From: Acidobacteriota bacterium
GTDB lineage: Bacteria > Acidobacteriota > Terriglobia > Terriglobales > Acidobacteriaceae
Length of the DNA stretch: 64,000 nucleotides
Assembly (NCBI GenBank): GCA_021846275.1
Contig: JAJZBZ010000002.1
Coordinates: 310,001-374,000 of the forward strand
Direction of reading: 5' to 3'
A model generated the notes under the pieces. The model was given only the letters and a program-made list of their open reading frames with translations, had not been told where the DNA came from and searched no databases. Every line of letters begins with the position of its first letter. The stretch's first letter is position 1. Positions 4,544-21,230 of the stretch are shown one piece after another. A program made the translations under genes and the position numbers.

Positions 4544-5009
<466 letters not shown>

Positions 5010-5993
5010 ATGAGCTTCGATTCTTCCCAATCCGGCTGCGGTGCGCCTTCTAAAGGCTGCTGCACCCCTTCTGCCGATCGCGCTGGGGCTGCCGTCACCG
5101 CAACGGTGGATACAACGGTGCGCGAGTGCCCCCCGGACCTTCGCGCCGAGATGGTTGACCTTCCGGGAGGCACATTTCTGATGGGCACAGACTACGAGTT
5201 TGGCTTTCCAGACGATGGAGAAGGCCCCGTGCATGCTGTGAATCTGAAGCCGTTCGCGATCGATAAATTCCCTGTCACCAATCGTTGGTTCCGCGAGTTC
5301 GTCAAGGCAACGGGCTATTGCACGGAGGCGGAACGCTTCGGCTGGTCTTTCGTCTTCTGGGCGCACATTCCCACATCGAAGCGCGCCACCTTCGTCGGAG
5401 AGACGGTCTCCGCCGCGCCATGGTGGTGTAAGATTCGCGGAGCGACTTGGGATGCGCCCGAAGGCCCTGGCTCCAACCTCAAAGGCCGCGAGGAACATCC
5501 TGTCGTCCACGTCTCATGGAACGATGCGATGACCTTCGCGAGGTGGTCCGGTCGGCGCCTGCCCACAGAGGCGGAGTGGGAATTCGCCGCCCGCGGCGGC
5601 CTCGTTCAGAAGCTCTATCCATGGGGAGACAAATTGCGTCCGAACGGCCAACATCGTTGCAATATCTGGCAGGGCGATTTCCCGCACCGAGATACGGCAG
5701 AAGATGGCTACGCCGGCACCTGTCCTGTGGACGCATTTCCTCCCAACAACTATGGCTTGTATTCCATGACCGGCAACACGTGGGAATGGTGCGCGGATTG
5801 GTTCTCGCCTGAATCGCATCGGCTGTCCGGCGCAGACAACCCAACAGGCCCGGCGACCGGACAGGCCCGCGTCCTGAAGGGCGGATCGTTCCTTTGTCAC
5901 AAGTCCTATTGCAATCGTTACCGCGTGGCTGCTCGCACTTCGAACACGCCAGACAGCACAACGTCTCACATGAGCTTTCGTTGCGTTCTGTAA
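5010..5993 (+). CDS. Formylglycine-generating enzyme (sulfatase-activating, copper type)
   Basis: FGE oxidises the cysteine of CxPSR motifs in unfolded sulfatases to formylglycine, using O2 and copper. The 327-residue protein has the FGE-sulfatase fold pattern: LPGGTFLMGTD near 51-61, HPVVHVSWNDAMTFARW near 163, RLPTEAEWEFAARGG near 183, and the closing block KGGSFLCHKSYCNRYR. Cys296 and Cys301 in that block match the two copper-binding active-site cysteines, so the enzyme should be active. Several N-terminal cysteines (CGAPSKGCC) are of the kind seen in other bacterial FGEs. There is no signal peptide, so it is cytoplasmic and would act before export. The start at 5010 was chosen by homology; its ribosome site is weak. 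Its likely clients are the two Cys-type sulfatases at 12.8 and 19.4 kb. Confidence 0.9.
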   Translation: MSFDSSQSGCGAPSKGCCTPSADRAGAAVTATVDTTVRECPPDLRAEMVDLPGGTFLMGTDYEFGFPDDGEGPVHAVNLKPFAIDKFPVTNRWFREFVKATGYCTEAERFGWSFVFWAHIPTSKRATFVGETVSAAPWWCKIRGATWDAPEGPGSNLKGREEHPVVHVSWNDAMTFARWSGRRLPTEAEWEFAARGGLVQKLYPWGDKLRPNGQHRCNIWQGDFPHRDTAEDGYAGTCPVDAFPPNNYGLYSMTGNTWEWCADWFSPESHRLSGADNPTGPATGQARVLKGGSFLCHKSYCNRYRVAARTSNTPDSTTSHMSFRCVL

Positions 5994-6076
5994 ATTTGCC
6001 CGTGATGCCTTCTACCGGGTTGATGCCTTCATGTGTCGAAGGCTTGGACAGACCGCGGGCTTCTGACGCAGCGCGT

Positions 6077-7255
6077 TCAGCTGGACCAAAAGTGGGAAGT
6101 AATGACCGTAGGGTTGAGAATCGTCGTGCCGACAATCGAGACATGGATCACAGCCTGAAAACTCTTTGTTTGCCAGTCGGTTGGTGCATCCTTGAGCAGT
6201 GTGGAGAACAGTGTAGGATTCACAAAGTAACGCGCGGCGGCTTCCGTTCCAAATGTTGTTACGCCGGAGGCTACCAGCACTATCTGCCCAACGCTCTTGT
6301 CAAAGAAACGAGTTACGATTCCATAGTCTTCGTCTCCGAAGAATCCATTCGTCCTGACCACAGGACCCCAGACGTGCCCGTTAGAGAGATCACGCACCGC
6401 AATGGCTACGCGATCATCCTGCTGCTTTACAAGGGCAAAGCGGAACTCACTATTGAGACGCGTTCGCCAGCCTGAGGGAAAGCCACTTAGCAGAAGTGTT
6501 GGTTGCTCGCACATTTGCGAGTAAGTCAGCTCGGCTCCCAGTCGCAGTTGGTAACTGTATTTGCGACGAGCGAGAAAAGCAATCACGTCGCTTGCAGCAA
6601 TTGATGCCCCAAAGCCGACACGATCTGTCAATTGCCCGCCATCTGTGGTCAGGATGGGGATTGAGATAATCAGAGGGCGACGCGTGGCGAATATGGGCTG
6701 CCAGAGACGATCTAGCACATCGCTTCGAACTCGGCTTTTGAGAGGATAGATCGCAGTCACTGCTGCGACTGTGGCCCCCACTGCAAGCAATCGCCGTCGT
6801 GACCAGCCCGCCGATTTCTCAGTGCTCCTCGTGTCCGTTACTGCTAGCAGATTGGGTGCTTCCGAAGTTCTCTGCTCGAAGACAGTTGGCAGTGAACTTT
6901 CCTCTATGAGAATCAGCGGAGTGTATCCGCCAACGGGAAGATCAATCCGTATTGGATGAGGTGGGTTAGAGGTGTAAAACTCACTGAGGCGCTTGCGTAC
7001 TTCCCGTGCCCTAACCCGGACAACAGAGTCTTCTCCAGGTTCGAAGTTTATTCCTCTGCCGAAGACCTCCGTCGCGATGGTGCGCTCTTTGAGGGCATCT
7101 CCCCGGCCAGCAACAACTTCGAGCACAACAAACCGCAAAAACTCTCGACATTTGGGGCTTGGTCGAAAGACAGGGCTGGCAAGAATCTCCTCCAGATGGG
7201 CCAGGGTTTGCGCGTCGCCAGGGAGAAGAGGATGGTTTAACTGCGGTTCTGACAC
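6077..7255 (-). CDS. Membrane-anchored putative regulator, copy A
   Basis: The protein has 392 residues and starts with GTG. The N-terminal part (about 20-105) has the pattern SPKCREFLRFVV, LKERTIATEVFGR, EPGEDSVVRVRAREVRKRL and RIDLPVGGYTP. This resembles the winged-helix-like N-terminal domain found before cyclase, TolB or TPR modules in acidobacterial and rhizobial proteins. One transmembrane helix follows near residues 155-172 (RRRLLAVGATVAAVTAIYP), then about 215 residues with no recognised domain. It is clearly paralogous to the protein at 15.0 kb: CREFLRFVV, FATxxPLxISIP, ELTYSQ, EQPxLLLxGF and KSFQAVIHxS are all shared. The DNA-binding role and the sensing role of the C-terminal part are inference; both GH128-like genes lie close to one copy. 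Confidence 0.6.
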   Translation of the reverse strand: MSEPQLNHPLLPGDAQTLAHLEEILASPVFRPSPKCREFLRFVVLEVVAGRGDALKERTIATEVFGRGINFEPGEDSVVRVRAREVRKRLSEFYTSNPPHPIRIDLPVGGYTPLILIEESSLPTVFEQRTSEAPNLLAVTDTRSTEKSAGWSRRRLLAVGATVAAVTAIYPLKSRVRSDVLDRLWQPIFATRRPLIISIPILTTDGGQLTDRVGFGASIAASDVIAFLARRKYSYQLRLGAELTYSQMCEQPTLLLSGFPSGWRTRLNSEFRFALVKQQDDRVAIAVRDLSNGHVWGPVVRTNGFFGDEDYGIVTRFFDKSVGQIVLVASGVTTFGTEAAARYFVNPTLFSTLLKDAPTDWQTKSFQAVIHVSIVGTTILNPTVITSHFWSS

Positions 7256-7316
7256 GAATCAGATGATAACACTGGACGTGTCCCTGTCAAGGGCAGAGTG
7301 ACATAGTTACCCTGTG

Positions 7317-7643
7317 GCTGATCTGGACTCGCTCGATGGGCAGGCCTTGAAGACTCTGCTGATCCGAGAGCAGCCCTCGAACGCTCACGAGATCAAGCAT
7401 CTGAAGTAGCTCATCGAGAAGTACCGGCCCGTGCAGTTCGAGATGAAGAGCGAGAAGCTCGCCGACAAACTCGGACAACTGGAACTCCAGCTTGAAGAGT
7501 TCGAGACCAGCGAGGCTGCTGAACAGGCCGCATCCCCTGCCACCCCATCCGCCGCATCGTCGGTCCGCCGCCATGGAACTTGGCCGGGAACCTCGACGAT
7601 CCCACTTTCCAGGCTTCCCGACCACACTTCCCGCAAGGTCTGA
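7317..7643 (+). pseudogene. IS66 transposase (TnpC) N-terminal relic
   Basis: Translation gives the IS66 TnpC N-terminal coiled coil: DSLDGQALKTLLI, then HEIKHLK, LIEKYRP, QFEMKSEKLADKLGQLELQL and EELE-like residues, ending near LPDHTSRKV. A TAG at 7407-7409 interrupts the helix in place of a sense codon, and the frame ends at TGA 7641. No catalytic core, TnpA/TnpB or terminal repeats are nearby, so only a fragment of about 330 bases remains. Confidence 0.75.
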
Positions 7644-7859
7644 GGAAACAATACATGGAGAGTTCGCAGATCGCAAAGACCAGCCTCGACCCTTCAGTCA
7701 AGAGGAAATCACCACGCGCGTACGAAATTCACACGCTTACGGCACACTTACAAAAATCCCGTCTGGCTCCCGGCTAGAGCGCCAGACGGGTCTAACCGAG
7801 CCGCATCGGTCTGCTTTGTTCGCAGGTGGACTCCTGTCCTTTTTCAAAAATCCACAATC
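7644..7859. other. Noncoding stretch between IS66 relic and broken ORF
   Basis: No gene is supported here. The only clear element is the hairpin terminator listed separately, which closes the minus-strand operon. Confidence 0.5.
7751..7790 (-). terminator. Rho-independent terminator of the sulfatase-receptor-GH128 operon
   Basis: The perfect 10 bp inverted repeat CCCGTCTGGC/GCCAGACGGG (7758-7767 and 7781-7790) has a 13-base loop. Read on the minus strand it is followed by ATTTTTG. It lies downstream of the minus-strand genes from 14.4 down to 8.2 kb and is the first good terminator after them. Confidence 0.75.
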
Positions 7860-8061
7860 TTACGGCGCGGAAATCTTCACAACGCGAAATACGCGGTTCA
7901 CTGAATCTGACTCGGTGCCCAAAAAGGACGAAGCCTGGCCTGCATCGACCTTTACAATCTCGACACCGTTGCTTTCATGAGCTGCCGACAGCAACTGGAA
8001 GAGGCATTTCTGCAGAGCCGTGGAATCCACCCGGACCCCGCATCATGTTGCAGTTTTCCAT
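7860..8061 (-). pseudogene. Short ORF, apparently frameshifted, unknown function
   Basis: On the minus strand a perfect AAGGAGG (8072-8078) lies 10 bases before an ATG at 8061. That frame stops after 28 codons at 7975. A second frame is open from 8030 to a TAA at 7860 and encodes 56 well-composed residues (LQKCLFQLLSAAHESNGVEI, later RVFRVVKISAP). Joining them needs one frameshift near 8030. It sits between the GH128 gene and the operon terminator. I do not recognise the protein. It could be a decayed gene, a recoded gene, or two chance ORFs. Confidence 0.3.
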
Positions 8062-8210
8062 GTGGAGAAGACCTCCTTGTGAGTACAGATGAGTTTTTCA
8101 TCAGCCGGTCACACGAAAACCGAGACTGCGTGTCCGACAGAGTTCACGCCGACAAACCCAGGCCATCATGAACGATCCCCAGTCAGCATGGCCACGATCG
8201 GATTCTCCCC

Positions 8211-9068
8211 TCAGCCGAACCTATGCTCCAGCGCGACGTCGTTTGCAGGAGACAGCACGGCGTACAGCTTCCCGAGATCGTTCAGAGTCCCATCCGAGTT
8301 ATAAAGCACGGAAGTTGCAAGTGCGTTCGAGTTTGGAGATCCTGTCGGAAACCAGGCATAACCTTTGACCCAAGAAAGATTATCCATTGCCTGACAGACC
8401 GTACCCATAAACTCGGCCACTTGCTCGACGGTGTATTGATTCGGCTTTCCATCGACGGCCTGATAGTCAGCGACAGCGAATTCAGTAACATAAATTGGAC
8501 GCTGATAGAGATCGTGTACTTTGCTGAGCATGCTGAGGAAGGCTTCGGTATCGATGCCCCCATAACTGTGTACAGCGACGGCATCCACCTGAAGGTTTTG
8601 CTGTTCGACTGCATTCATGAAGGTCTGCATCCAGGGGCCGAGCGGCTGTGCGGCTGCTGGCGAGACCAACTCTCTCGCAATACCCTGAAGCTGAGGCCAT
8701 GCCGCGATGGCTGTCTCAACCGGAATGTTGGATTGTTTGACGTTGTCAGGCTCATTGAAGCCGAGAAGGATGGACAAGTGTTCAGAGCTAAGAGTCTGGA
8801 GCAACGCTGGAGATGTTTTTGGATACCATCCCCATACCATCGGGAAATATTGGATGGAAGGGCTTGTGGTGGGCATGCCCACTGTGGACGGTTTAGGGCT
8901 CCAGTTGTAATACCAGGCTGTGATTAGATTGGATGCCAGGGGAGCAGCCCCGGCAATTCCCTTCTTTCGATCATGGCCATTAAAACTTTTCTGGAATGGT
9001 TCACTACATCCAGCGAGCGCGAGCAATGCCGCACTGCCACCGATAAACTTGCGACGAGACATGGACAT
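8211..9068 (-). CDS. GH128-like (Asl1-type) glycosyl hydrolase, copy A, Tat lipoprotein
   Basis: The 285-residue protein has a leader with the twin-arginine motif SRRKFIGG followed by the lipobox LALAGC near residue 21, so it is probably exported by Tat and lipid-anchored. The catalytic domain matches the Asl1/GH128 TIM-barrel family of endo-beta-1,3-glucanases: AWYYNWSP, PMVWGWYP, LLGFNEPDN (acid/base Glu), VHSYGG, IYVTEFAVADY (nucleophile Glu), GYAWFPTG. Family length is about 240-300 residues. It is clearly paralogous to the gene at 16.4 kb. It follows the TonB-dependent receptor on the same strand after 245 bases and is probably the last intact enzyme of that operon. Beta-1,3-glucan as substrate is a family expectation only. 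Confidence 0.82.
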   Translation of the reverse strand: MSMSRRKFIGGSAALLALAGCSEPFQKSFNGHDRKKGIAGAAPLASNLITAWYYNWSPKPSTVGMPTTSPSIQYFPMVWGWYPKTSPALLQTLSSEHLSILLGFNEPDNVKQSNIPVETAIAAWPQLQGIARELVSPAAAQPLGPWMQTFMNAVEQQNLQVDAVAVHSYGGIDTEAFLSMLSKVHDLYQRPIYVTEFAVADYQAVDGKPNQYTVEQVAEFMGTVCQAMDNLSWVKGYAWFPTGSPNSNALATSVLYNSDGTLNDLGKLYAVLSPANDVALEHRFG

Positions 9069-9313
9069 TTTGGTTTCCCTCGTGGATCAGGTTTTTATGA
9101 ACTGACACTCTGTGTGCTCATCTGCTGGACCGGCAAGACAACCGCATAAAGCAGACATCCGCTTGTATGGCAGTTATGAACACGTTTTCATTGCGACAAC
9201 TCATTGCATTCGTTCCCGTGATGATCGGTCTGGCTACCGCTCCACACAAGGAGGTCCCTGGAATGGCGACCCCCTTGTACGTGTTACTGGAGACAGCCTT
9301 AGACTACAGATCA

Positions 9314-12300
9314 CTAAAAAAAGAAGTGCGCGGACAACTGAATGACACGTGGACCGCCGCGCGCTCCGGTGATTTTGCCGAAGTTAGCATTTGCCAGACC
9401 GTCCGGTGCCGCGAATATCGGATGATTGAGCGCATCGAACGCATCCATCTGGACCACCACGGATGTCTGATCTCTCCATGGAATCCTGGCTTCCTTTTGT
9501 AAAGAAATATCCAGATTGTCATAGTTCGGGGCGCGTACGATTGACGAGTATCGGCGCTGGTCGCCGAAGGCGTAAAGCGGGTTGGCTGCTCCGTAGAGTT
9601 GCTGCAAATTGCTACTGAATACAAGAGTTCCTGACCAATCAAAGGCCGAGGTATTGAACCACTGATTGAGGCTTCGTTGTGACAGGCTTGGATTTCCCAC
9701 ACGCATCGGACGGGTAGCAACAGTTCTGGCAGGGCTGCCGTAGTGGAAGCCACCATCGTTGATGCCAACGGGTGTTCCCGATGTCAGAGAATAAATCCCG
9801 GACACTCGCCATCCGCCAACAACTTTCCCCAGCCAATTCCTGTTAAGATACTTTCTCCCCGTTCCGAAAGGCAGATCGTATATCGGCGCAAATTGCAAGT
9901 TCAAGGGCACATCGCCCGCGCTTACAGAACGCTCCTGGCTTCGGTGATAGAAGTCTTGTCCGTAGACATCGAGCGAGCCAATTCCATTCCCGTCGCCGCC
10001 GTAGTCAGAGGAAGAATCATCCATCAGACGACTCCATGTAAAAGTCGTCAGGAAGGAGAATCCATCAGAATAGATCTTCTGAACAGTTGCCTGCATGGCG
10101 TTGTAAACCGAACTGGAGATTCCCCAGTATCCGGGGAACACATAATCGCCCTCAAATCCGCCAAGTGCTTTGAAGCTGCCTACACCGCAATATGGACCAT
10201 CCTGAGCACCAGCGCCGGAATCTGGATTGCCCGGAGTGCTTGGGTTTGCCAGGATGTTTGCCTCGGACTGCTGGCAAAGGTTATATTGCCTGTTTACCGG
10301 CAGACGGACACCGTGGCTTCCTGTGTAACTTAACCGGAAATCCACGCTCTGACCGATTTGCTGATCAACTGTCAGATTGTACTGTTGAAAATACTGTGTG
10401 CCTTGATGATATGGCGTATACGTTGAGGATTCAGCGTCAGCAAATGTGAGTGGAGCTGTCAGGTTAGGCAGATTGATTGCCGGTAGGCTGGCAATATTCG
10501 TACCCGATGGGATCGGCGTATTCGCGAGTATGTTCGGAGACACATAGCCATCTCCGGCGCGACCATGGCTGAATACGCCGGGATATGTAATGCCGTACCC
10601 GCCCCTGATGATCAGCCCGTTACGCGGATTCCAGGCGAAGCCCACCCGTGGAGCAAACTCCTTCCAATGTGTCTGGATGGAGCCCCGCGGGACACCGTTG
10701 ACTCCGTTGACCTTCCACTGCAGGACATAGGGATTGAAGCTTGCCATTTGCCCTACGGGAGCTGTCCATGAGGGGTCATACTGCCAGCGTAATCCGAGAT
10801 TCAGGGTGAGTGTTCCGGATACTTTCCAGTCATCCTGAACGTACAGTGCGTCCTGCCATGTTTGCGGATGGACATACTCGTTTTGGACCTGGACGCTGCT
10901 CTGCGCCATATATCCAGTTAAAAAATCTGCGAAGGGATTTCCGGTGTTATTACCAAGAAATCGAAAGTCTCCCGCGACCTGGTTCGGCTGGATATTCTCG
11001 ATGTATGCGTGTGAAATGCTACCCCCGTACGTGAGGGTGTGCCTGCCCAGCGTTTCGGTAACGTTGTCCAGAAATTGATAAGTCCCTTGATTCTGCACGA
11101 GCATTCCAGCGCCAGCTCCGACACCGGTAAAGCCCCCAATAAAAATTGTAGGAGGTCCACATTTTCCGTTCGATCCCGAATAGTTGCAAGCCGGGATTCC
11201 AGAAATGCCAAAGTCACTGGGCGCAAACTGACCGTATCCATTTGTTGATCGAAGAGCTGGATTACTGTTATACCCATATCGAAGCTGGTTATCCAGGTTC
11301 GAACTGAAGAGATGGTTCCAGCCCACAGTAACAGCATTGTCGGGGCTGGTCGAATAACTGTTCGCATCCGGAAACCCGCTTACCGTGTTCAGCGTCGAGC
11401 CGGTATAGTGGAATGCGCCAAAGATCTGGTCACGATCCGTCAGGTTCCAGTCTATGCGCGGATTGGTGCGAGCTACAGATTGCGAATGCGAAACCACTCC
11501 ATTCCAGTAGTCTCCTCCAACGGTTGGAGATGGCCCGGCATTTCCTGCTGGATAGAGAGCCAGAAGAGCCTGGGCGATCGGACTGACTGGTATCTGGTTG
11601 CCTCTGTATGGAAGTCCAGTTTGTGGATCCTTCAGCTGTTTCGTCACAGCAGATAAGTTACCGCTGCGAAAATCTGCATTTGGGACGACCTCATCCACTA
11701 CGGGTGAAGTCTGTGAAGTTCTTACCCCCTGATAGTCGACAAAGAAGAAAAGTTTGTTGCGAAATATTGGACCGCCGAGAGTCCCACCATATTCGTTGGA
11801 GCTATAGGGCAAGATGGGGGTGTTGGGAGCCTGAAAAAAGTCCTTGGCATCAAGCGCTGCATTTCGCGCGTATTCGTATGCGCTGCCATGGAAGTGGTTG
11901 GTGCCGGATTTGGTCGTGATGGTGACGACGCCGCCACTCACATTTCCATATTCAGCACTGAAGTCATTCGTCAGTACATGCATTTCTGCCACCGTGTCCG
12001 GTGAGGGCGACACGAGCGGACCGCCAAATACACCCGCCTGGACATTGGTTCCATCCAGCAGGTAGGAGTCCATACGTGGACGACCACCATTAATTCGGGC
12101 ATTGTTCTCTGCAAACCCACCCTGGCCGAGCTGCTGGCTCACACCTGCCGACAGGCCTTCAAGGCCCCAGGCATCCTGCCCTGCACCGCCGGAGACGATC
12201 GGCAATTGCTGCAATTCCCTTGTGGAAATGGTTTGGTCCAACATCGATTGCTGTGTTGGAAGAAACGACGATTCAGACACGACTTGAACGCTTTGCGCCG

Positions 12301-12661
12301 GTTGCCCCACCTGAAGCGCCATGCTTTCTTTCGGGTTTTCATCGACATGGAGGACGATGTTGTCGATGACTCCAGCCTTAAATCCGCTTGCTTCCACTTG
12401 CACGCGGTATGTTCCTGGATTCAGGTTGGTGGCGTTATAGACGCCTGCACCGTTGGTCTGCAGCGTCACAGATACGTTTGTCTGCGTATTTGTGACCGTG
12501 ACCTTGGCTCCAGAGATGACTGCTCCACTGGGATCAGTGATGATCCCACTGATCGTACCGAAGAGGCCTTGCCCGATGAGCGCTGTCGTGGCAAAGCATG
12601 CGACCAGCAGCATCAAGCATGAAAGTGCAATGTTCTTACGGATTCCTCGTTTGTTACTCAT
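9314..12661 (-). CDS. Oar-like TonB-dependent outer-membrane receptor with carboxypeptidase-regulatory N-terminus
   Basis: The 1115-residue protein has a signal peptide (residues 1-31, ending before LFGTISG) and a CarboxypepD_reg-like domain (about 32-115: GIITDPSGAVISGAKVTVTN, NPGTYRVQVEASGF). Next come a plug-type region with GGxxRMDSYLLDGTNV and the ISGGVVTITTKSGTNxFHGSAYEY pattern, and then a long beta-barrel ending in FFF. This is the large receptor class expanded in Acidobacteriota, believed to import or bind oligosaccharides and peptides with TonB energy. It sits between sulfatase 1 and GH128 copy A on one strand, in the place a SusC-type protein would take in a Bacteroidetes polysaccharide locus; no SusD-like gene is present. 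Confidence 0.88.
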   Translation of the reverse strand: MSNKRGIRKNIALSCLMLLVACFATTALIGQGLFGTISGIITDPSGAVISGAKVTVTNTQTNVSVTLQTNGAGVYNATNLNPGTYRVQVEASGFKAGVIDNIVLHVDENPKESMALQVGQPAQSVQVVSESSFLPTQQSMLDQTISTRELQQLPIVSGGAGQDAWGLEGLSAGVSQQLGQGGFAENNARINGGRPRMDSYLLDGTNVQAGVFGGPLVSPSPDTVAEMHVLTNDFSAEYGNVSGGVVTITTKSGTNHFHGSAYEYARNAALDAKDFFQAPNTPILPYSSNEYGGTLGGPIFRNKLFFFVDYQGVRTSQTSPVVDEVVPNADFRSGNLSAVTKQLKDPQTGLPYRGNQIPVSPIAQALLALYPAGNAGPSPTVGGDYWNGVVSHSQSVARTNPRIDWNLTDRDQIFGAFHYTGSTLNTVSGFPDANSYSTSPDNAVTVGWNHLFSSNLDNQLRYGYNSNPALRSTNGYGQFAPSDFGISGIPACNYSGSNGKCGPPTIFIGGFTGVGAGAGMLVQNQGTYQFLDNVTETLGRHTLTYGGSISHAYIENIQPNQVAGDFRFLGNNTGNPFADFLTGYMAQSSVQVQNEYVHPQTWQDALYVQDDWKVSGTLTLNLGLRWQYDPSWTAPVGQMASFNPYVLQWKVNGVNGVPRGSIQTHWKEFAPRVGFAWNPRNGLIIRGGYGITYPGVFSHGRAGDGYVSPNILANTPIPSGTNIASLPAINLPNLTAPLTFADAESSTYTPYHQGTQYFQQYNLTVDQQIGQSVDFRLSYTGSHGVRLPVNRQYNLCQQSEANILANPSTPGNPDSGAGAQDGPYCGVGSFKALGGFEGDYVFPGYWGISSSVYNAMQATVQKIYSDGFSFLTTFTWSRLMDDSSSDYGGDGNGIGSLDVYGQDFYHRSQERSVSAGDVPLNLQFAPIYDLPFGTGRKYLNRNWLGKVVGGWRVSGIYSLTSGTPVGINDGGFHYGSPARTVATRPMRVGNPSLSQRSLNQWFNTSAFDWSGTLVFSSNLQQLYGAANPLYAFGDQRRYSSIVRAPNYDNLDISLQKEARIPWRDQTSVVVQMDAFDALNHPIFAAPDGLANANFGKITGARGGPRVIQLSAHFFF

Positions 12662-12814
12662 CTTTCTGTTGACCTCCAGAAATGTTGAAGTTGACTTTCA
12701 GACACTACTTTCCAGCTACATCTTTTACTGCTACGTGGCGGTAGTGCCGGTTCTGATGTGTGCATGTTTGTAACTCGTGAGCGCTGCGATCGTTGTACGC
12801 GGTAAACGATACGA

Positions 12815-14407
12815 TCACTGTGCACGCGTCCGCTGTAACATTGCCCGCAGTCGAGCAACCACTTTGGGGTACTCTAACGCGACGTTCCTGGTCTCGCCCG
12901 GATCGTCAATCAGGTCATAAAGCTCAATGAGAGCCTCCGGGTAGTCCACAGACCCAGGCATAAACCGCTCTTCGTTGGCCTTTGCCTTCGCTGCGGCCTC
13001 AGGACTCATCGGGTGCCACTGTGGCCGGATCTTTGTGCCCGGCCGCTGGGTGCGGTCCACCAGTTTCCACCGCTTTGTCCGGATAGACAGAAACAGACCT
13101 TCTTCCACGAGGTATTCCCGTCCCCGGGACGTCTTGCCCAGCATGGCTGGCAGTTCATTCAGGCTGTCTGGCCCACCGTTGCTCGGCACAGTGGAATGCG
13201 TCAATGCCGCGATGCTTCGGAGCACATCCACCTGGTCTATGAGCGCGTCGGATGTACCTGGCCGTATGACTCCAGGGTAGTAGGTGATGAAAGGTATCCG
13301 CGTCCCCCCTTCATAGACTGAATATTTTCCTCCGCGCCACGGTCCGGCTGGCCGGTGGTTTCCAAGATCAGCGACGGAGTTATCGTTATAGCCGTCATTC
13401 ACGACCGGGCCGTTGTCCGATGTGAAAAGCACAAGCGTGTTTTCTTCTAATCCGTGCTTGCGGAGCGTCTCCATCACCTGCCGCACGCAATCATCCAGCT
13501 GCATGATGACATCACAGCGAATGCCACATTCACTCTTTCCCGCGAACTGTTTCGCAGGCGCATGCGGCACGTGGATGTCGCTCGGCGTGAAGTACAACAG
13601 AAACGGATGCTCCTTGTGCTTTTCGATGAATTCACAGGCCTTGTTCGTGAACGTCTTGGCCATCGTCTCGTCATTCCATCGCGCAGACTTACCTCCGGAC
13701 ATGTACCCGATTCGGCTGATGCCATCCACGATCGTGCCGTCATGGCCCTCGCTCAGTTTCATCTTCAGCAGTTCTGGATCTTCTCGCCCCGTCGGATCGT
13801 TGCCGACCTTGTGACTGTAAGAGACCACGATCGGATCTTTTGGATCGAGGTTGACTACGTGGTGGTTGTGGATATACACGGTTGGCACCCGGTCCGCGGT
13901 CGCCGCGAAGAAGAATGCGTCGTCAAAACCCACTTCGCAGGGTCCGGGTTTTATCTCACCGTTCCAATTGATCTCTCCATCCCCCAACCCGAGGTGCCAC
14001 TTGCCCACCAGTCCGGTTGCGTATCCATTCGCCTTCAATACGGAGGCGACCGTTGGCTGCCCTGGCTGTACCAACGACTTTGCATCGCCAGGCAGAACCT
14101 GGATGCCGTCTCGCCGCCACGCATATTGCCCGGTCAACATTGCATAGCGGGAGGGTGTGCATGTCGCCGCATCGGAATGAGCGTCGGTAAACCGCAATCC
14201 CTGACGGGCAAGGGCATCGATGTTCGGCGTGCTCACATTCACACCGCCGTAGCACGTCAGATCTCCATATCCAACGTCATCCGACAGAATGATTACGATG
14301 TTCGGTTTTTTGGACATCGCCGGTTTGGTCATCGCTTCGCACTTCCCGCCCACGGCAAGTGCTGCGCCTGCCATTCCCATCCGTCTCGTAAACTCTCTCC
14401 GATTCAT
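12815..14407 (-). CDS. Tat-exported Cys-type sulfatase 1
   Basis: This is a type I sulfatase that hydrolyses sulfate esters. The 530-residue protein starts MNRREFTRRMGMAG, a twin-arginine leader, followed by a sulfatase core: NIVIILSDDVGYGDL (metal ligands), the modification site C83-T-P-S-R, KWHLGLG near 153, and TSDNGPV. Cys83 would be converted to formylglycine by the FGE at 5.0 kb. The start at 14407 has GAGGAA upstream with about 10 bases spacing; a start 15 residues earlier would bury the Tat motif. It is first of a minus-strand group sulfatase-receptor-GH128 that ends at the terminator at 7.75 kb. The sulfated substrate cannot be told from sequence. Confidence 0.9.
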   Translation of the reverse strand: MNRREFTRRMGMAGAALAVGGKCEAMTKPAMSKKPNIVIILSDDVGYGDLTCYGGVNVSTPNIDALARQGLRFTDAHSDAATCTPSRYAMLTGQYAWRRDGIQVLPGDAKSLVQPGQPTVASVLKANGYATGLVGKWHLGLGDGEINWNGEIKPGPCEVGFDDAFFFAATADRVPTVYIHNHHVVNLDPKDPIVVSYSHKVGNDPTGREDPELLKMKLSEGHDGTIVDGISRIGYMSGGKSARWNDETMAKTFTNKACEFIEKHKEHPFLLYFTPSDIHVPHAPAKQFAGKSECGIRCDVIMQLDDCVRQVMETLRKHGLEENTLVLFTSDNGPVVNDGYNDNSVADLGNHRPAGPWRGGKYSVYEGGTRIPFITYYPGVIRPGTSDALIDQVDVLRSIAALTHSTVPSNGGPDSLNELPAMLGKTSRGREYLVEEGLFLSIRTKRWKLVDRTQRPGTKIRPQWHPMSPEAAAKAKANEERFMPGSVDYPEALIELYDLIDDPGETRNVALEYPKVVARLRAMLQRTRAQ

Positions 14408-15038
14408 CACTCGATATTTCCTCTTTGCTGGGTGTGGCGTTTCTCCCGCCATGGGGCGAAACGCATTTTTTTGCTTACCTTTTCGCTATCGCAATCTGCC
14501 ATCAGATTTCCGCCGCGCTAGCTTCGCTCCTGCGCCAGGTCTTTGCAGAAAGACCGAATTCGCCTTCCCGCTCCTGCCTGTTTGACCCCAGCTATGCGTC
14601 TCTGATTTGAGCTGCTTTTGAATCCACATGATGCTGCCCCAATGCGCGAGAGGCTGACAAGGTTATTACGCGCTTGTCACTGTTTCTCTTCGTCAACCTG
14701 AAGCACGAGACTGTAAACAAAGATTTTGGCTGCGGCTCATAACGGCAGGTTTCACGGAGTTTCGCAACGTGATGCGGATGTTTCGGCCAATATCACGGAT
14801 CTCGTCATTTTTCGCTGGCAGATAGCAACCTCGCTGCGCAGATTGCCTGCCGGTTGCGTATAAGAGCTGTGGCGGCAAGGTACATCCAGGCACAGCGCAG
14901 AACCCGTCAGCGCCAGAAGCTTCCATCTGGCATGTGTTCTGACTGTATGAAAGGGTTTTGCGGGACATCCTCTTACGCGCCCTGCGTTCGACTTCACGCA
15001 GAGTGTACCCAGCGCAGACGACAGCACTCGAATCGATT
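14408..15038. other. Noncoding stretch between sulfatase 1 and regulator B
   Basis: Frames of about 100-120 codons exist on the minus strand but show no recognisable protein features and are Cys/Arg-rich in a way typical of chance frames. A small hairpin (GGTCTTT/AAAGACC near 14.54 kb) is present. The stretch must hold the promoter of the sulfatase operon, which I could not place. Confidence 0.5.
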
Positions 15039-16181
15039 TCAACGCCAGAAATGGCGCGCAATCAACGTAGGCGTCGAAGGGGTCCCATCAATAACAGACA
15101 GGTGAATAACAGCCTGAAAGCTCTTCTGAGTCCAATCCGCTTTTTGGTTGGCGATCAGCTGCGAGAACAGCTCCGGCCGCAAAAAGAACCGGGCCGCGCT
15201 CTCCGTACCGTACGTCGTGATGCCAGCGGCGATCATAATGATCTGCCCTGAAGCTGCATCGAAGAGCCGACAGATCATCGCATAGTCCTGAGTCGGATGG
15301 CTTGCATGGTTATCGATCGGTCCGTACATCTTCCCAGTCTGGTTATCGCGGATCGCTCCCCCATCTTCAAACCCGATTGGAACCATCGTGAATCTCAGGT
15401 TGCTCATGATTCGCGTCGTCCATGTCGAAGAAAACCCACCTAGCAGCAGGCTCGGCTGCTCCCTGATCTGGGAGTAGGTCAACTCCGAGCCGAAACGCAC
15501 ATGGTACGGATAGTGATTGCTTCCCAGAAACTCGGTCGTCTCATTGGCTGCTGTCGCCGCGCCCAGACCTACCCTCTCCGTAACCGAACCATCGTCATTC
15601 CGTAGCAGTGGAATGGAGATAAGCAGCGGATTGTGCGTGGCAAAAACCGGCTGCCACAACTGATTCAACGGCATTCTGCGCGTTTCAACGTAACGCACCA
15701 CTGGCCACGTTACCGCCGCCGCACAGGCCGCGATGCTCGCCCGTAATAAAGTTCGTCGGCTCATCAAACCTGCCACCGATGGCATCGGCGCCAACGGCAG
15801 CGCCACGACCGCAGCGGCATCCTGAGTCATGCGTTCAAACGTAGGCACATACCCACCCAAAGGCAGCTGAATACGAACGGCATCGTTACGATTCAACTCG
15901 TAATAGTCCGCTAATCGCTTGCGCACCTCCCGGGCCTTCACCCGCACCACCGAATCCTCTCCGGGTTCAAACCTGGAGTCCTTGCCAAACACCTCCATAG
16001 CGATCGTTCGCTCTTTGATGGTGTCGCCATGTCCCGTCAGGGTCTCCAGCACCACAAACCGCAGAAACTCTCTGCACTTCGGGCTTGCCGCGAACAACTG
16101 ACTCCTCAGGATGCGTTCCAATTGCTCTCGAATACTGGAATCCGACACTTCAACCGGCGCGGGCTTTCCATCTGCTTGCAT
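15039..16181 (-). CDS. Membrane-anchored putative regulator, copy B
   Basis: The 380-residue paralogue of the 6.1 kb protein has the same order: N-terminal domain (SPKCREFLRFVVLETL, IKERTIAMEVFGK, EPGEDSVVRVKAREVRKRL, RIQLPLGGYVP), one membrane helix near 140-160 (LMSRRTLLRASIAACAAAV) and a C-terminal domain of about 220 residues with ELTYSQIREQPSLLLGGF and ITTYGTESAARFF. The last segment contains a run shared almost exactly with copy A (KSFQAVIHxS). It is divergent from GH128 copy B with 221 bases between them, an arrangement typical of a regulator and its target. A sensing role for the C-terminal domain, and the side of the membrane it occupies, are inference. Confidence 0.6.
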   Translation of the reverse strand: MQADGKPAPVEVSDSSIREQLERILRSQLFAASPKCREFLRFVVLETLTGHGDTIKERTIAMEVFGKDSRFEPGEDSVVRVKAREVRKRLADYYELNRNDAVRIQLPLGGYVPTFERMTQDAAAVVALPLAPMPSVAGLMSRRTLLRASIAACAAAVTWPVVRYVETRRMPLNQLWQPVFATHNPLLISIPLLRNDDGSVTERVGLGAATAANETTEFLGSNHYPYHVRFGSELTYSQIREQPSLLLGGFSSTWTTRIMSNLRFTMVPIGFEDGGAIRDNQTGKMYGPIDNHASHPTQDYAMICRLFDAASGQIIMIAAGITTYGTESAARFFLRPELFSQLIANQKADWTQKSFQAVIHLSVIDGTPSTPTLIARHFWR

Positions 16182-16190
16182 AACCGCCGG

Positions 16191-16196
16191 ATTATA
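16191..16196 (-). promoter_or_regulatory. Possible -10 box of regulator B
   Basis: A perfect TATAAT on the minus strand ends only 9 bases before the ATG at 16181, so transcription would begin almost at the start codon and the mRNA would be nearly leaderless. The 8-base palindrome TTACGTAA (16200-16207) lies directly upstream and could be an operator. No clear -35 was found. Confidence 0.35.
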
Positions 16197-16402
16197 ACAT
16201 TACGTAACAGTGCCTTGCACCTGTTGATATCCTCTGCGTTTGCCACACTTTAGTAATGAAACAGTATTGTTGCCTGCCGTAGCCTTGTCACGCGCAACCG
16301 TAAGCCCCATCATGATTCTGTCTGCGGATAGTCCTCATCCTTTTCCGCCATCGCGCGACCGACGCAGCACCAAACTACCGGACTTATTCTCACGGAGAAC
16401 TC

Positions 16403-17293
16403 ATGAGCCTATCTCGCCGAACCTTCCTGTCACACGCAGCAGCAGCAGCAGCCTGGGCTGCAGCACCACCGATCGGAGCATTCGGCTCGTCAATGACCCT
16501 GACCGCAAAGAAGGGGCTGGCCGGCATTGCACCGGAAAAATCCGGACTGCTCACGAGCTGGTACTACGACTGGCGGCTGCACCCAGCCACCTCTGGAATG
16601 CCTGTGCTCCATCCCGAAATTCAATTCCATCCCATGTGCTGGGGATGGAGGTCCGAAGCCGCCATGCAAGCCCTGGCAGAGCGAGGGCCAAACACCCGGA
16701 CTGACGACAGTACGGCGCAGGGACTCCTTGCCTTGCGTGCTCGGAAGCCGAAGGTTCTCTTTGGCTTCAACGAACCGGACCAGCCCGAACAATCTCATCT
16801 CTCCCCGGAAACCGCCGTCGATGCATGGTCGGCCTTTCAGGGTATCGCACAGGAACTTGTCAGCCCTTCCTGCGCACACCCCCAAAGTCAGTGGATGGAA
16901 AATTTTGTCTCCGGGGTCGAACGCCGCCACCTGCAGCTCGATTCTCTTGGCTATCACACTTACCCTTCGGACTCCGTGGACGCCTTCGCCACGCACCTCG
17001 ACGGCTTCTACCGCAAGTATGGCCGACCCGTCTGGGTCACCGAGTTCGCCGTCGCAGACTGGGCCGCTCGCGACGGCCACACCGTCAATCGCTACAGCGT
17101 GGACAGGGTCGCCGAGTTCATGCGTGGTGCCTGCAAGTTCCTGGAAGAGACTCCCTGGATTCGTGGCTACGCATGGTTCCCGCGCGGAGGCAAATTCTCC
17201 GCTCGCGATGGGAGGGGCCCACTGGCCTCATCCGTCCTCTTCCATGACGATGACACTCTGAATGAACTCGGCAAGCTCTACCTTTCCATCTAG
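16403..17293 (+). CDS. GH128-like (Asl1-type) glycosyl hydrolase, copy B, Tat-exported
   Basis: The 296-residue protein has the leader SRRTFLSHAAAAAAWAAA, a twin-arginine signal; unlike copy A there is no lipobox. The catalytic domain matches copy A throughout: SWYYDWRL, PMCWGWRS, LFGFNEPDQ (acid/base Glu), YHTYPS, VWVTEFAVADW (nucleophile Glu), RGYAWFPRGG, LNELGKLYLS. It has a somewhat longer loop before the FNEP strand, with an insertion of about 20 residues (ERGPNTRTDDSTAQ). GGAG lies 5 bases before the ATG. It is divergent from regulator B and followed by a GH5-like gene on the same strand. An endo-beta-glucanase role is expected from the family. Confidence 0.82.
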   Translation: MSLSRRTFLSHAAAAAAWAAAPPIGAFGSSMTLTAKKGLAGIAPEKSGLLTSWYYDWRLHPATSGMPVLHPEIQFHPMCWGWRSEAAMQALAERGPNTRTDDSTAQGLLALRARKPKVLFGFNEPDQPEQSHLSPETAVDAWSAFQGIAQELVSPSCAHPQSQWMENFVSGVERRHLQLDSLGYHTYPSDSVDAFATHLDGFYRKYGRPVWVTEFAVADWAARDGHTVNRYSVDRVAEFMRGACKFLEETPWIRGYAWFPRGGKFSARDGRGPLASSVLFHDDDTLNELGKLYLSI

Positions 17294-17767
17294 GAAAGTT
17301 CTGAACCAGTTCCGAATGCGCGGGCGATGTATCCGGGAACCTTTTGCAATCGGCACGGATTCTGCGGCGATCCGCAGCGATTGGGCCGTCAGACGAGTAT
17401 GCGTCGAGACGAGCGGAGACAGAACAGGATGTCCACCCATGTTTCATCAGAGCGGCGTGTGCCGCGGTATCATCCGTTGCGCGCGGCGCGCATGCGCTTG
17501 GCAGGTTTTCCTGGGTTCTTGGTTACATTGGAGGAAGAACATGAAGATTCCCCGGATTGCATCGGTTGAAGATTCCCCTGGTTGGGGCGGATTGACGTTG
17601 TACGGAAGATGGGGGCAGGTCATTCAAAACCAGAACTTCCACGGAATCCCCTGTCCGAACTTCTGAAACCGGCTCTGCTGGACTCCGTGCCGCTTGTACA
17701 AATCTCAGGGCAGATCAGATAGCTGGGCATCTTTTGCAACGCGCCTGGCAGACAGGACGCAATCCCC
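17294..17767. other. Noncoding stretch between GH128 copy B and the GH5-like gene
   Basis: No gene supported. It contains a GC-only palindromic run (gcgcgcggcgcgc near 17.48 kb) but no terminator with a T-tract. The gap of 474 bases suggests that the GH5-like gene has its own promoter, not located. Confidence 0.45.
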
Positions 17768-19036
17768 ATGAACGCTCTCACCCGCATCATCGCCACCAAT
17801 CTGCTCACAGCCATGGCCGCCGCCGCCATCGGTTGCGGAAGCTCCGGTGCCACCGGTACTCCAACACCCTCACCAACACCCACACCAACCCCATCTGCCA
17901 ATCCCGCCGGAGTTGCCGTCGTCTCCGGAAAACTCGTTGTCGCCGGCACGGCAACCCCGTTCACGCCCACCGGCTTCACCTCCGAGGGCATCGTCTATCC
18001 CACCCCCGACGCCGGCACGCTCTGCAGCAGCACATTCCAGGCATCCGCCGCGGCAGCCAGTCTCCAGCAGGCCCAGGCCGCTCTCACCGCGCCGCCGCTG
18101 CCCGGCCTCGCCTACAACGCATCCTTTCAGGCCATGGTGAAGAATTGGCACCTCAACAGCGTGCGCATGCAGGTCAGCGAGGGCGCACTCCAGTACGAAT
18201 CCGTGCACGGCCTGTCGGAATACACCAACCTGGTGCGCAGCGCTGTCGCGCAAGCCCGTGCCGCCGGACTCATCGTCATCCTCTCCATGCAGTCCGAGGT
18301 CTACGGCTGCACACCCTACCAGAACGGAGCACTGCAAAAGCTGCCCGACATCAACACGGAACAAGCCTGGAAACAGCTCATCAACCCCACCCTCGCCAAC
18401 GACACCGGTGTCATCTTCGAGATATTCAACGAGCCGAACGCAATCGTCACTTGTAACTCAGGTTCATTTCAGCAACCCGACTGGACAGCATGGGCCACCG
18501 GCTGCGGCACAGAACCCGATCAGGGCATGCTCACGGTTGGCCAGTACGTCCGCACCCTCGCACCGAACAACGTGTTACTCTTCGATGGCGAGGATATTGA
18601 TTTTGCATTCACTGGCTTTACGCCGCCCAGCGGAATGCCCTCCAACTCCGCCTACACCTTTCATCCCTACAATTACGTCGTCAACAGCAGCCTGACAGAC
18701 AGCACCAACGCCTGGAACACCCGCTTTGGCAACTTCGCCACAAGCGGCCAGGCCGTCTTTGTCACCGAATGGAATGAGGCTTTTTCCTGCCCCAACGATC
18801 CCAATCAGACCATCACTGACAACTTCATCCAGACCTACCTGCCGGCGCACTCCATCGCAATGGTCGCCTACTCCTGGGACGCCCCGGTGCAATCCTCCGG
18901 CTATCTGGTCAACAGCTACAACTATCCCGGCAACACCGCCAATTACCAGTTAGTCGACCCCAACAACTCCGGCTGCGCGGAAGACGGAGGTGCAGTCCTG
19001 CAAAAATTCTTCCAGACCCAGGCCGCAGGCAACTGA
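17768..19036 (+). CDS. GH5-like glycosyl hydrolase lipoprotein
   Basis: The 422-residue protein has a Sec lipoprotein leader: a hydrophobic segment ending in the lipobox AIGC, then a Thr/Pro linker (TPTPSPTPTPTPS). The TIM-barrel has the two GH5 signatures: IFEIFNEPN with acid/base Glu222 and VFVTEWNEAF with nucleophile Glu334. HPYNYV before the nucleophile fits the conserved His-x-Tyr. GH5 covers endo-beta-1,4-glucanases, mannanases and others; the subfamily cannot be told here. Unlike the GH128-like enzymes and sulfatases of the island it uses a Sec and not a Tat leader. Confidence 0.8.
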   Translation: MNALTRIIATNLLTAMAAAAIGCGSSGATGTPTPSPTPTPTPSANPAGVAVVSGKLVVAGTATPFTPTGFTSEGIVYPTPDAGTLCSSTFQASAAAASLQQAQAALTAPPLPGLAYNASFQAMVKNWHLNSVRMQVSEGALQYESVHGLSEYTNLVRSAVAQARAAGLIVILSMQSEVYGCTPYQNGALQKLPDINTEQAWKQLINPTLANDTGVIFEIFNEPNAIVTCNSGSFQQPDWTAWATGCGTEPDQGMLTVGQYVRTLAPNNVLLFDGEDIDFAFTGFTPPSGMPSNSAYTFHPYNYVVNSSLTDSTNAWNTRFGNFATSGQAVFVTEWNEAFSCPNDPNQTITDNFIQTYLPAHSIAMVAYSWDAPVQSSGYLVNSYNYPGNTANYQLVDPNNSGCAEDGGAVLQKFFQTQAAGN

Positions 19037-19046
19037 CGCCAAGACC

Positions 19047-19301
19047 CTCTCCATCGAACCCGGTTCTTCGTGGGAGAACGGTTCTTGCGAAAGCTTCAGC
19101 CGGGCCTCCAGCGACAGGTCTTCGTCGCTGCGGTGGAATTCAAAGCTGTGCAACGAATTTTTGAAAGACGAAATCTTCCATTCGCTGAAAGAAGTGCGCG
19201 TGCTGGCCAAACGCTGGCGCGTTTCCTTCAACTCCGAGCGGCCACATTCTTCGCTGGGCTACAAACCGCCAGCACCGGCAGAGTGGCAGACTGAAGCTTC
19301 C
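19047..19301 (+). pseudogene. IS3-family transposase (OrfB) C-terminal relic
   Basis: The open frame gives the end of an IS3 OrfB: PGSSWENGSCESF, NSKLCNEFLKDEIFHSLKE, WRVSFNSERPHSSLGY, KPPAPAEW. Between CESF and NSKL, which are normally contiguous, there are 13 extra in-frame residues (SRASSDRSSSLRW). It begins 11 bases after the GH5 stop. The catalytic core upstream is missing and no terminal repeats were found. Confidence 0.8.
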
Positions 19302-19446: not shown

Positions 19447-20913
19447 TCAATCCTCAATGCAGTCAGGCCCTGGCAGCCAACTGCATCCCGCGGGTCCGAT
19501 GCGTAGACTCGCCAATTCGGGATTATAACCAGGATTCGGCGTAGGCATGGCTGCATTCACTGACTCTCTCCATGCAATCAGCTTTTCGTGCAGGACATAA
19601 GCTTTGTCCTGATAAGTGGAAGCAAAGTTATACTGCTCGCCAGGATCAAGGTCCAGATCGTATAACTCCAGATGATTGTCTTCAAAAAACTCGATCAGCT
19701 TCCAATTCTTCTGCCGGATAGCACCGGATGGAGTGCCTCCCTGATCACTATAGTGAGGGTAATGCCAGTAGAGCGTATCTCTGTCCGGCGGAGGTCCACC
19801 CCGAAGGAAAGAAGTCAGATCAAGACCGTCGTGTGGCTCCGGGGGCGCGCCTGCTCCTGCCATCTGCAAAATCGTCGGCATCAGGTCAAGCGCGCTGACG
19901 GGAGTGTCAGAGACCACTCCAGCGCGGGTCACTCCCGGCCAGTACACCATGAATGGCTCTCGAATGCCGCCTTCGTAAAGGAAGCCTTTTCCGGCGCGAT
20001 AGGGTCCATTGTCAGCGATACGATGCAGTCGGCGTCCCTGGAAACCGACTCCGCCGTTATCCGAGGTAAGAATGATGATCGTGTTATCCGCGACGCCCGC
20101 TTTTTCCAGTGACTTCCTCAGATTGCCAAGGGCGATGTCGGTGCTCTCAATCATGGCCGCGTAGGTTGGATCTGGTTCATCCTTGCCTCCATTGCGTTTA
20201 CGATATTGCTCAATCATCGGCTCTTTCGCCTGCAGGGGTAAATGCACCGAGTACTCCGCCATATACAGGAAGAATGGACCTTTCTTCGCGGCATCGGACA
20301 AGTAATCGTCCATCTTTGTGGTCAATACATCTGTCAGATAGTTGTCAGGTGTGTAGCCGGTAAGATTATGAAAGTGGAAAGGGCCGAAGTACGAGGGAGG
20401 GTTACCGTGATTGTCGCCTGCGACATTGACGTCAAAGCCAAAGTCTTCCGGCAAATACCCATCTCCACCCAAATGCCACTTGCCGATGGCCGCCGTCTGG
20501 TAGCCAGACTTTTTCAGCAGCCGCGCGATTGTCGGAACGCTCAGATCGAGATGCTTCGGCGTTGGGGCTTCCAACATTTTCTTGTGTGGATAAAACGTGC
20601 CTGGAATCCACTGCGTGAGATGAAGTCTCGCCGGAGCCTGTCCCGTCAGAATAGCCGCGCGGCTGGGGGAACAGACCGGTGCTCCCGCATAGCCATTTGT
20701 GAAGCGTATGCTTTCTTTCGCCAGCTGGTTAATGTTGGGAGTGCGATGGAAAGTATCCCCGTAGCATCCCAGATCGCCCCAACCCATGTCATCGATGAGG
20801 AAGATCACGATGTTTGGCTTGCGGTCTGTCGTTGCAGCCCGCAGAGCTGAGGGGGCCAGAGCCAGTCCCGTCAAACCGGCTAGTTGTGAACAAAATGTTC
20901 TCCGTGTAGACAT
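19447..20913 (-). CDS. Tat-exported Cys-type sulfatase 2
   Basis: The 488-residue type I sulfatase starts MSTRRTFCSQLAGLTGLALA, a twin-arginine-like leader. Core motifs are NIVIFLIDDMGWGDLGCYG (metal), the modification site C81-S-P-S-R, IGKWHLGG near 160, and TSDNGGVG. It ends with ELYDLDLDPGEQYNFA, typical of the family C-terminus. The start at 20913 is preceded by AGGGAG and AGGA; the frame is open upstream but the added residues spoil the leader. It differs strongly from sulfatase 1, so it is not a recent duplicate and may act on another sulfate position. It stands alone on the minus strand between IS relics. Confidence 0.9.
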   Translation of the reverse strand: MSTRRTFCSQLAGLTGLALAPSALRAATTDRKPNIVIFLIDDMGWGDLGCYGDTFHRTPNINQLAKESIRFTNGYAGAPVCSPSRAAILTGQAPARLHLTQWIPGTFYPHKKMLEAPTPKHLDLSVPTIARLLKKSGYQTAAIGKWHLGGDGYLPEDFGFDVNVAGDNHGNPPSYFGPFHFHNLTGYTPDNYLTDVLTTKMDDYLSDAAKKGPFFLYMAEYSVHLPLQAKEPMIEQYRKRNGGKDEPDPTYAAMIESTDIALGNLRKSLEKAGVADNTIIILTSDNGGVGFQGRRLHRIADNGPYRAGKGFLYEGGIREPFMVYWPGVTRAGVVSDTPVSALDLMPTILQMAGAGAPPEPHDGLDLTSFLRGGPPPDRDTLYWHYPHYSDQGGTPSGAIRQKNWKLIEFFEDNHLELYDLDLDPGEQYNFASTYQDKAYVLHEKLIAWRESVNAAMPTPNPGYNPELASLRIGPAGCSWLPGPDCIED

Positions 20914-21230
20914 ATTCCTGCTGCTCCCTGAATCGGTTGTAATCATCCGAAGTGCGGATATAAACAAATCAAACTGGGCATTCATGCCCGCTTGACCCAT
21001 GCAAAGCCACGTTCGATCCACGACTGACCCTATGCGCGGTCGCCGCGCAAGTCAAGTTCCGACTCCAGGGTAACTGTGATATGGAATGTAATATTTGCAA
21101 ATAGTTGTAAATAAATAACTAACACGAATCGGTCGGACTCTGTTACGTGGGTTTTCTGAGCGGTGGTTCCGTTTGTTCGGACAGTTTTTGTTCTTTTCTT
21201 CAGTGGAAGTTCTTGCTCTTGTTTTGGCTT

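Follow-up and report, generated by a model that had tools for sequence, protein, structure and literature searches.

Acidobacteriota are major degraders of soil polysaccharides. The polysaccharide utilization loci (PULs) of the Bacteroidota are regulated by SusR, hybrid two-component systems (HTCS) or sigma/anti-sigma pairs, and no described regulator for the Oar-receptor glycan loci of the Acidobacteriota was found in the open-access literature. Here we analysed a 64,000-nucleotide stretch (the window) of a 3.34-Mb Acidobacteriota genome, in which two genes, RegA and RegB, encode putative membrane-bound transcription regulators. Like the Bacteroidota PUL regulators they adjoin a TonB-type receptor and glycan enzymes, though in another phylum and with another architecture, and the Pfam domains of HTCS, SusR and FecR-type regulators were listed for neither protein. 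We consider it fairly probable that both are one-component regulators of a sulfated-glycan utilization locus that are inserted in the membrane through twin-arginine translocation (Tat).

The architecture most resembles that of the ToxR/CadC-like regulators, with an N-terminal OmpR/PhoB-type winged helix, one membrane helix, a presumed periplasmic C-terminal domain and no kinase. Unlike these, RegA and RegB lack a curated DNA-binding Pfam match and carry another C-terminal domain; the membrane helix of their clade bears a twin-arginine, and their family is linked to Oar-like receptors and glycan enzymes. As they match no known DNA-binding profile, they are likened to the ToxR/CadC-like proteins and not filed among them. 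A survey of ToxR/CadC-like transmembrane transcription regulators gives a slight excess in Acidobacteriae, and the terms twin-arginine and TonB do not occur in its main text (PMC10269533). Internal Tat helices have a precedent among the Rieske proteins: Tat integrates their only helix or the last one, which in the actinobacterial proteins is the last of three or five (PMC7317946). Tail-anchored Tat proteins are described in PMC10924467. RegA and RegB would share with the Tat-inserted Rieske proteins an uncleaved twin-arginine helix and a folded domain outside; unlike those cofactor-bearing proteins, which have no DNA-binding domain, they would place a folded cytoplasmic domain before the motif. 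No Tat-inserted transcription factor was found in the open-access literature, including the accessible parts of PMC7317946, PMC10924467 and PMC10269533.

In the mechanism that we favour, the N-terminal winged-helix domain would remain cytoplasmic and bind DNA, while the helix that follows an invariant twin-arginine would act as an uncleaved Tat signal-anchor, inserting the protein in the inner membrane so that its C-terminal alpha/beta domain, already folded, would come to lie in the periplasm. There it might sense the substrate, as a glycan fragment or through the state of the importing Oar-like receptor, and the signal would be relayed to the DNA-binding domain.

Architecture and folds of RegA and RegB

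The two regulators and their parts lie at the following positions of the window:
15039..16181, reverse strand: RegB, 380 residues, putative membrane-bound transcription regulator (open reading frame (ORF), alignment and AlphaFold2 model)
15831..16142, reverse strand: RegB N-terminal winged-helix-like domain, residues 14-117 (AlphaFold2 and structural matches)
15675..15758, reverse strand: RegB membrane helix, residues 142-169, starting with R142 R143 (15753-15758), proposed internal Tat signal-anchor
15042..15668, reverse strand: RegB C-terminal domain, fold like GH67/GH115/GH84 accessory domains and part of BcsB
6077..7255, reverse strand: RegA, 392 residues, paralog of RegB
6905..7216, reverse strand: RegA N-terminal winged-helix-like domain (by alignment to RegB)
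6716..6799, reverse strand: RegA membrane helix, led by R153 R154 (6794-6799; by alignment to RegB)
6080..6715, reverse strand: RegA C-terminal domain (alignment)

RegA and RegB are 47% identical over 384 aligned positions (E 5e-118). The first-pass annotation had assigned to both a winged-helix-like N-terminal domain, one helix and an unassigned C-terminal domain; the alignment and the RegB model agree with this, and the two are most simply read as paralogs with a predicted OmpR/PhoB-like winged helix, one membrane helix and a C-terminal domain of about 210 residues. Neither protein rose above a Pfam or NCBIfam cut-off over any part, C-terminal domain included, and below threshold RegA matched DUF4149 (E 0.0099) and RegB matched TAT_signal at residues 140-157, in the membrane helix (E 0.0037). 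The AlphaFold2 model of RegB, built on 71 aligned sequences, has a mean predicted local distance difference test score (pLDDT) of 90.1 and a predicted template modelling score (pTM) of 0.63, and consists of a helical/winged N-terminal domain, the helix 142-169 and a C-terminal alpha/beta domain. A single helix between the domains, scored as a 19-residue stretch with a mean hydropathy of 1.03-2.96, is present in all 71 aligned family members. Elsewhere the genome encodes a more distant third paralog that is built in the same way (G000:C8:160300-161658).

Modelled alone, the N-terminal domain reached a pLDDT of 86.2 and a pTM of 0.80, and rows 1-15 of its VIA-align comparison were all OmpR/PhoB-type domains or whole regulators (Z 6.4-7.5, 77-96 residues aligned), led by SaeR (Z 7.5), GlnR (7.2) and PhoB (7.0). 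These matches point, at moderate strength, to a nucleic-acid-binding type of fold; a prediction without such a fold is what the first-pass annotation would have taken as refuting its proposal. Two points weigh against a DNA-binding role: the fold match is itself moderate (best Z 7.5, best Foldseek E 0.15), and no sequence profile ties the domain to a known DNA-binding family, either in Pfam or among PDB sequences. A match of the type Trans_reg_C, which we take to be the Pfam profile of the OmpR/PhoB-type DNA-binding domain, was found for neither RegA nor RegB at E up to 1, and the profile of the N-terminal domain returned one chance-level match against PDB sequences (E 0.82). In related genomes the same N-terminal domain also stands at the front of differently built proteins, whose C-terminal parts look by eye repeat-rich or malectin-like (L032, L033).

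The C-terminal domain, compared as its part of the full-length RegB model, has a predicted alpha/beta fold similar to that of a group of glycan-related proteins. Rows 1-20 were filled by the N-terminal parts of GH115, GH67 and GH84 enzymes, the C-terminal part of BcsB and one S-layer anchor (9fsa), at Z 9.0-10.9, a root-mean-square deviation of 2.6-3.8, 116-164 aligned residues and 8-16% identity; below these followed another BcsB row (Z 7.6) and other enzymes (Z at most 7.2), and the best Foldseek E was 0.005, to BcsB. The closest of these folds are accessory, non-catalytic domains, from which the C-terminal domain differs in its low identity and in its regulator context. Kinship at the level of sequence found no support, as no match to the sequences of solved proteins was found at E up to 1; comparing the domain by hhalign with two neighbouring GH84 proteins, over their N-terminal part, yielded no match either, a weak test with a profile of only two sequences. 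The likenesses thus rest on fold alone, which counts against a firm reading of this domain. Because the fold is shared with GH67/GH115/GH84 domains and BcsB, contact of the domain with a glycan is suggested, though unproven. Of the glycan sensing put forward in the first-pass annotation, a role involving glycans is plausible from the neighbouring genes and the fold.

Because the fold is common to parts of these enzymes and of BcsB, and several domain positions are invariant or nearly so (among them W6, W84, G150, D129, Y130 and R135), the domain might also be read as a scaffold or enzyme-like rather than a sensor, in a protein that would be a proteolytically released transcription factor or a structural partner of Oar. 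We regard this as quite improbable, since the nearest folds are accessory and non-catalytic and 71/71 aligned members carry the domain on one chain with the DNA-binding domain, although these were selected for that.

The twin-arginine helix of the close clade

Of 100 genomes sampled from the window's family, 65 had a match to a two-sequence profile at E 1e-5, with up to 16 per genome; these are N- or C-domain matches, the two domains of a protein often appearing as separate entries and many entries being of the N-domain only. Searches at E 1e-40 matched 111 of 398 family genomes and 22 of 396 phylum genomes, two sets that overlap, include the window's own genome and had at most four candidates scored per genome. 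In these sets 14 close relatives outside the own genome scored at least 348 bits, and many others scored 140-250. A scan of 84,980 species, made with two peptide patterns and so not exhaustive, returned 15 loci, all titled Acidobacteria. Seventy-two full-length members were extracted and 71 aligned, with the weakest (L029) omitted. In the tree a branch with support 100 (quick method, SH-aLRT) separates the 14 close relatives, RegA and RegB from all other members, and we refer to these 16 as the close, sulfatase-linked clade and to the other 55 aligned members as the wider family.

In the close clade no pair of linker residues other than R142 R143 is invariant (16/16), and the linker rows are 18-34% identical to that of RegB. 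The pattern RRx-phi-phi (RR, one residue of any kind and then two that are hydrophobic or small, a loose pattern that also admits Ala, Gly and Trp) occurs in 16/16 close members against 6/55 wider ones, and RR within nine residues of the helix in 16/16 against 18/55. The close-clade helix is less hydrophobic, with a mean hydropathy of 1.47 (1.03-1.86) against 2.25 (1.61-2.96) in the wider family; 28 leader-like motifs of neighbouring genes average 0.95. A matrix trained on these motifs, a few of which are evidently not real leaders, and scored with RR excluded gave 7 to 24 for the clade and -17 to 15 for 25 RR-bearing wider linkers, with a shuffled 95th percentile of 2.9; the p values for hydropathy (7e-9) and matrix score (2e-6) are indicative only because the aligned rows are related. 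The RegB linker alone matched TAT_signal at E 0.0002 (21.5 bits), just below the cut-off. Across the close clade TAT_signal matched 2/16 linkers and UCR_Fe-S_N 3/16, weakly (best E 0.0002 and 0.028), and neither was among the matches listed (25 of 41 families) for the 55 wider linkers.

Some of the genes beside these regulators carry similar motifs. Counted over the close-clade loci together with L095, Tat-type motifs were present in 16/20 sulfatases and 7/7 GH128 proteins, compared with 3/18 receptors and 8/95 other ORFs, and TatC is present in the genome. Since the clade adjoins sulfatases and GH128 proteins with mostly Tat-type leaders, its regulators could report on Tat export, or on folding of the sensor before export. 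That this clade of transcription factors is itself a Tat substrate, with the DNA-binding domain kept in the cytoplasm while an internal signal-anchor exports a pre-folded sensor domain, is a proposal that we see as evenly balanced.

The same helix could instead belong to an ordinary ToxR/CadC-like regulator inserted through Sec/YidC, its arginines merely following the positive-inside rule. Wider-family members are built alike, their helices are strongly hydrophobic, and about a third of them (the 18/55 above) have RR close to the helix; transmembrane one-component regulators are also common, with the slight enrichment in Acidobacteriae already mentioned (PMC10269533). Against this stand the standing of RR as the sole invariant pair of the clade linker, the lower helix hydropathy with little overlap between the two groups and the resemblance of the flanks to Tat leaders, and we hold the Sec/YidC route to be unlikely on balance.

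Some observations count against insertion through Tat. Tat signals are normally N-terminal, and RR sits at residues 142-143 of RegB and 153-154 of RegA. The link between Tat and sulfatases derives from one clade and possibly from one evolutionary event. Among 20 further wider neighbourhoods, five of them picked for an RRx-phi-phi linker, one has sulfatases (by Pfam), so that together with the 24 wider loci described below, sulfatases occur in 1/6 wider loci with RRx-phi-phi and 0/38 others, a group in which the motif was not scored throughout and L096 has no linker; this co-occurrence is not counted as support. The one locus, L150 (G128:C1:1464001-1484000), has a wider-family regulator with the motif RRYLL adjoining two sulfatases and an Oar-like receptor, and is possibly an independent case of the Tat-sulfatase link. 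As a separate observation, a Met codon directly precedes SRR in RegB (LMSRRTLL, 15753-15764) and likewise in L036, the relative closest to it; translation from this internal codon would yield a free Tat-anchored C-terminal domain.

A direct repeat at regulator promoters

A candidate operator precedes RegB:
16195..16209, reverse strand: TGTTACGTAATGTTA, a 10-bp direct repeat lying 13 nt before the start codon of RegB

The repeat, TGTTA-N5-TGTTA, is exact in 5/16 close-clade regions (the 14 loci and the regions upstream of RegA and RegB) and present with at most one mismatch in 8/16, against 0.0 and 0.15 in shuffles, and at 0-1 mismatch it occurs in 0/23 other regions (L095 included). Six of its eight carriers have it 77-84 nt ahead of one and the same N-domain codon, the other two 337 and 377 nt away, and an N6 version was seen by eye in two more members, L036 and L044. 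Matrices built from seven sites, with the target's own clade excluded, placed the best position of the whole locus at the regulator promoter in 7/14 loci, compared with a mean of 0.2 and a maximum of 2 in 200 column permutations. At L085 the best position was also at the promoter, on the other strand, and at L095 it was just upstream of a RegB remnant. The training sites were drawn from the same loci, and the procedure therefore tests agreement between clades and is not an unbiased search.

RegB, at least, would act at this repeat over its own promoter, in the region that it has in common with the divergent GH128-B, and would therefore autoregulate; it would probably control the adjoining enzymes and receptor as well. 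The second half of the repeat overlaps an extended -10-like sequence, TGTTATAAT, before RegB, which is compatible with autorepression. RegA and its two nearest relatives have no site within one mismatch, which is compatible with the position of RegA downstream of an operon, and RegA, as part of this three-member group without a good copy, would use another site or act downstream.

The overlap also means that the second half may be no more than the -10 of the promoter, and the whole repeat could then be just a conserved part of the promoter rather than an operator, more so as wider members also show -10-like sequences there by eye. We find this doubtful: the first half, 10 bp upstream, falls outside any standard promoter, and the pair is missing from the 23 other regions at 0-1 mismatch. 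Several further results limit the case for an operator. The repeat is more than one mismatch away in 8/16 close-clade regions, and at two mismatches the other regions also exceed shuffles (8/23 versus 2.9; close clade 10/16 versus 3.1). Although 16195-16209 is the only site of the window within one mismatch, a single match is not itself significant, being present in 22/100 shuffled windows. The genome has 12 matches within one mismatch (three exact, i.e. two others) against 54 for a reversed control, giving no genome-wide enrichment, and the leave-clade-out matrix puts the window's own site eighth of ten listed matches. The gapped-word search of 31 divergent promoter regions from which the repeat was derived returned GTTA-N6-GTTA and related words in seven regions against at most six in four shuffled sets, or in the close clade only, 6/14 against 5, and a general repeat search of 16182-16402 found no repeat.

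Neighbourhoods, origin of the pair and meaning

The cluster at 4.8-21 kb that holds the regulators further contains:
4800..5993, forward strand: formylglycine-generating-enzyme-like protein, sulfatase activation (PF03781, E 8e-85)
8211..9068, reverse strand: GH128-A, Tat-type leader MSMSRRKFIGG (PF11790, E 8e-48)
9314..12661, reverse strand: Oar-like outer-membrane receptor (CarboxypepD_reg and OMP_b-brl_4)
12815..14452, reverse strand: sulfatase 1, Tat-type leader (CTPSR motif)
16403..17293, forward strand: GH128-B, Tat-type leader MSLSRRTFLSH (PF11790, E 6e-41)
17768..19036, forward strand: GH5-type glycoside hydrolase (PF00150)
19447..21021, reverse strand: sulfatase 2, Tat-type leader after a later start codon (CSPSR motif)

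Both sulfatases carry CxPxR motifs. As first annotated, RegB is divergent from GH128-B and RegA is downstream of GH128-A; the gap in the first pair is 221 bp, and the genes of the second pair share one direction and are 955 bp apart.

The neighbourhoods of relatives were called with the window's own proteins as queries at E 1e-5, over up to 20 kb, several loci being shorter where contigs end. In the close clade a sulfatase is present in 14/14 loci, a divergent Oar-like receptor among the first three upstream genes in 13/14 and GH128 in 4/14 (L081, L090, L091, L093); among 24 loci of the wider family a divergent receptor is kept in 18, with sulfatase and GH128 in 0/24 each. A Pfam re-check of ten borderline proteins gave eight sulfatases (six in the close clade, two at L150), one short CarboxypepD_reg protein and a weak 'receptor' at L080 without a Pfam match. 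In the wider family, carbohydrate-active enzyme (CAZyme) families account for about 11/29 proteins on the divergent side, receptor excluded (GH16 3, alginate lyase 2, GH3 2, GH88 1, GH18 1 and GH2 2, the last at L094 and L113), and for 4/50 downstream (GH43, GH3, GH127 and a GH2-type exo-glucosaminidase), counts taken from the families listed (best 25 of 41, 27 and 47) and assuming that these are different proteins. Outside the strict rule, GH84 genes at L100 and L104 and a GH2 gene at L101 adjoin the receptor, and hand-picked neighbours in the close clade include GH78 (L086; L081, downstream side), GH2 (L090, L093) and a heparinase-like protein (L087, downstream side). The family thus tends towards glycan loci, and its close clade towards loci with sulfatases; because wider members keep the divergent receptor, often with other CAZymes, the family as a whole looks like a glycan-locus regulator of the Acidobacteriota. 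Regulators mostly without glycosidase neighbours, which the first-pass annotation would have counted against its proposal, are what is seen for GH128, and not clearly what is seen for CAZymes at large.

That annotation had also suggested a small module of regulator and GH128, duplicated or recruited twice. The cluster does hold two regulators and two GH128 genes (43% identical to each other), and GH128 is near the regulator in the same four close-clade loci. In the tree, however, RegA is grouped with the copies of G374:C15 and G016 (support 100) and RegB with that of G166 (support 94); both are nearer to copies in other genera than to each other, and hence no recent local duplication is indicated. 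Nor are the pairs kept, since the lone A-type regulator of G016 adjoins a GH128-B type gene and the A-type regulator of G374:C15 has no GH128 in 20 kb. On tree, gene order and the scarcity of GH128 near relatives the module was dropped as highly improbable. G251/L095, which belongs to the same genus, has this cluster too; a contig end truncates its RegA, and the place of RegB is taken by a 37-residue 5' remnant (L095:2088-2358), with a degraded promoter repeat still there.

The cluster lies in a GC-poor stretch (52-59% GC across 6-22 kb versus 61-66% in flanking blocks) with a tRNA-Ser (TGA) at its edge (4544-4633), the sole match of an Rfam scan, and frames near 18990-19544 and 21231-21515 resemble by eye the ends of IS3-type transposases; 4544-22000 is a possible island. 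Elsewhere in the window, the ORF at 1077-2039 combines by eye an RsfS-like start (ribosomal silencing factor) with a long Lys/Ala/Pro repeat tail of histone-H1 type.

Beyond the first-pass annotation, the analysis adds the link to Oar-type receptor glycan loci, the fold of the C-terminal domain, a helix led by a twin-arginine in the sulfatase-linked clade, and a candidate operator. The family supplies testable regulators for the Oar-receptor glycan loci, and one clade also a testable DNA site. Should the proposed route of insertion be true, a Tat-inserted transcription factor would represent a new use of the Tat pathway, and the regulator would couple the synthesis of enzymes to the export route which those enzymes use.

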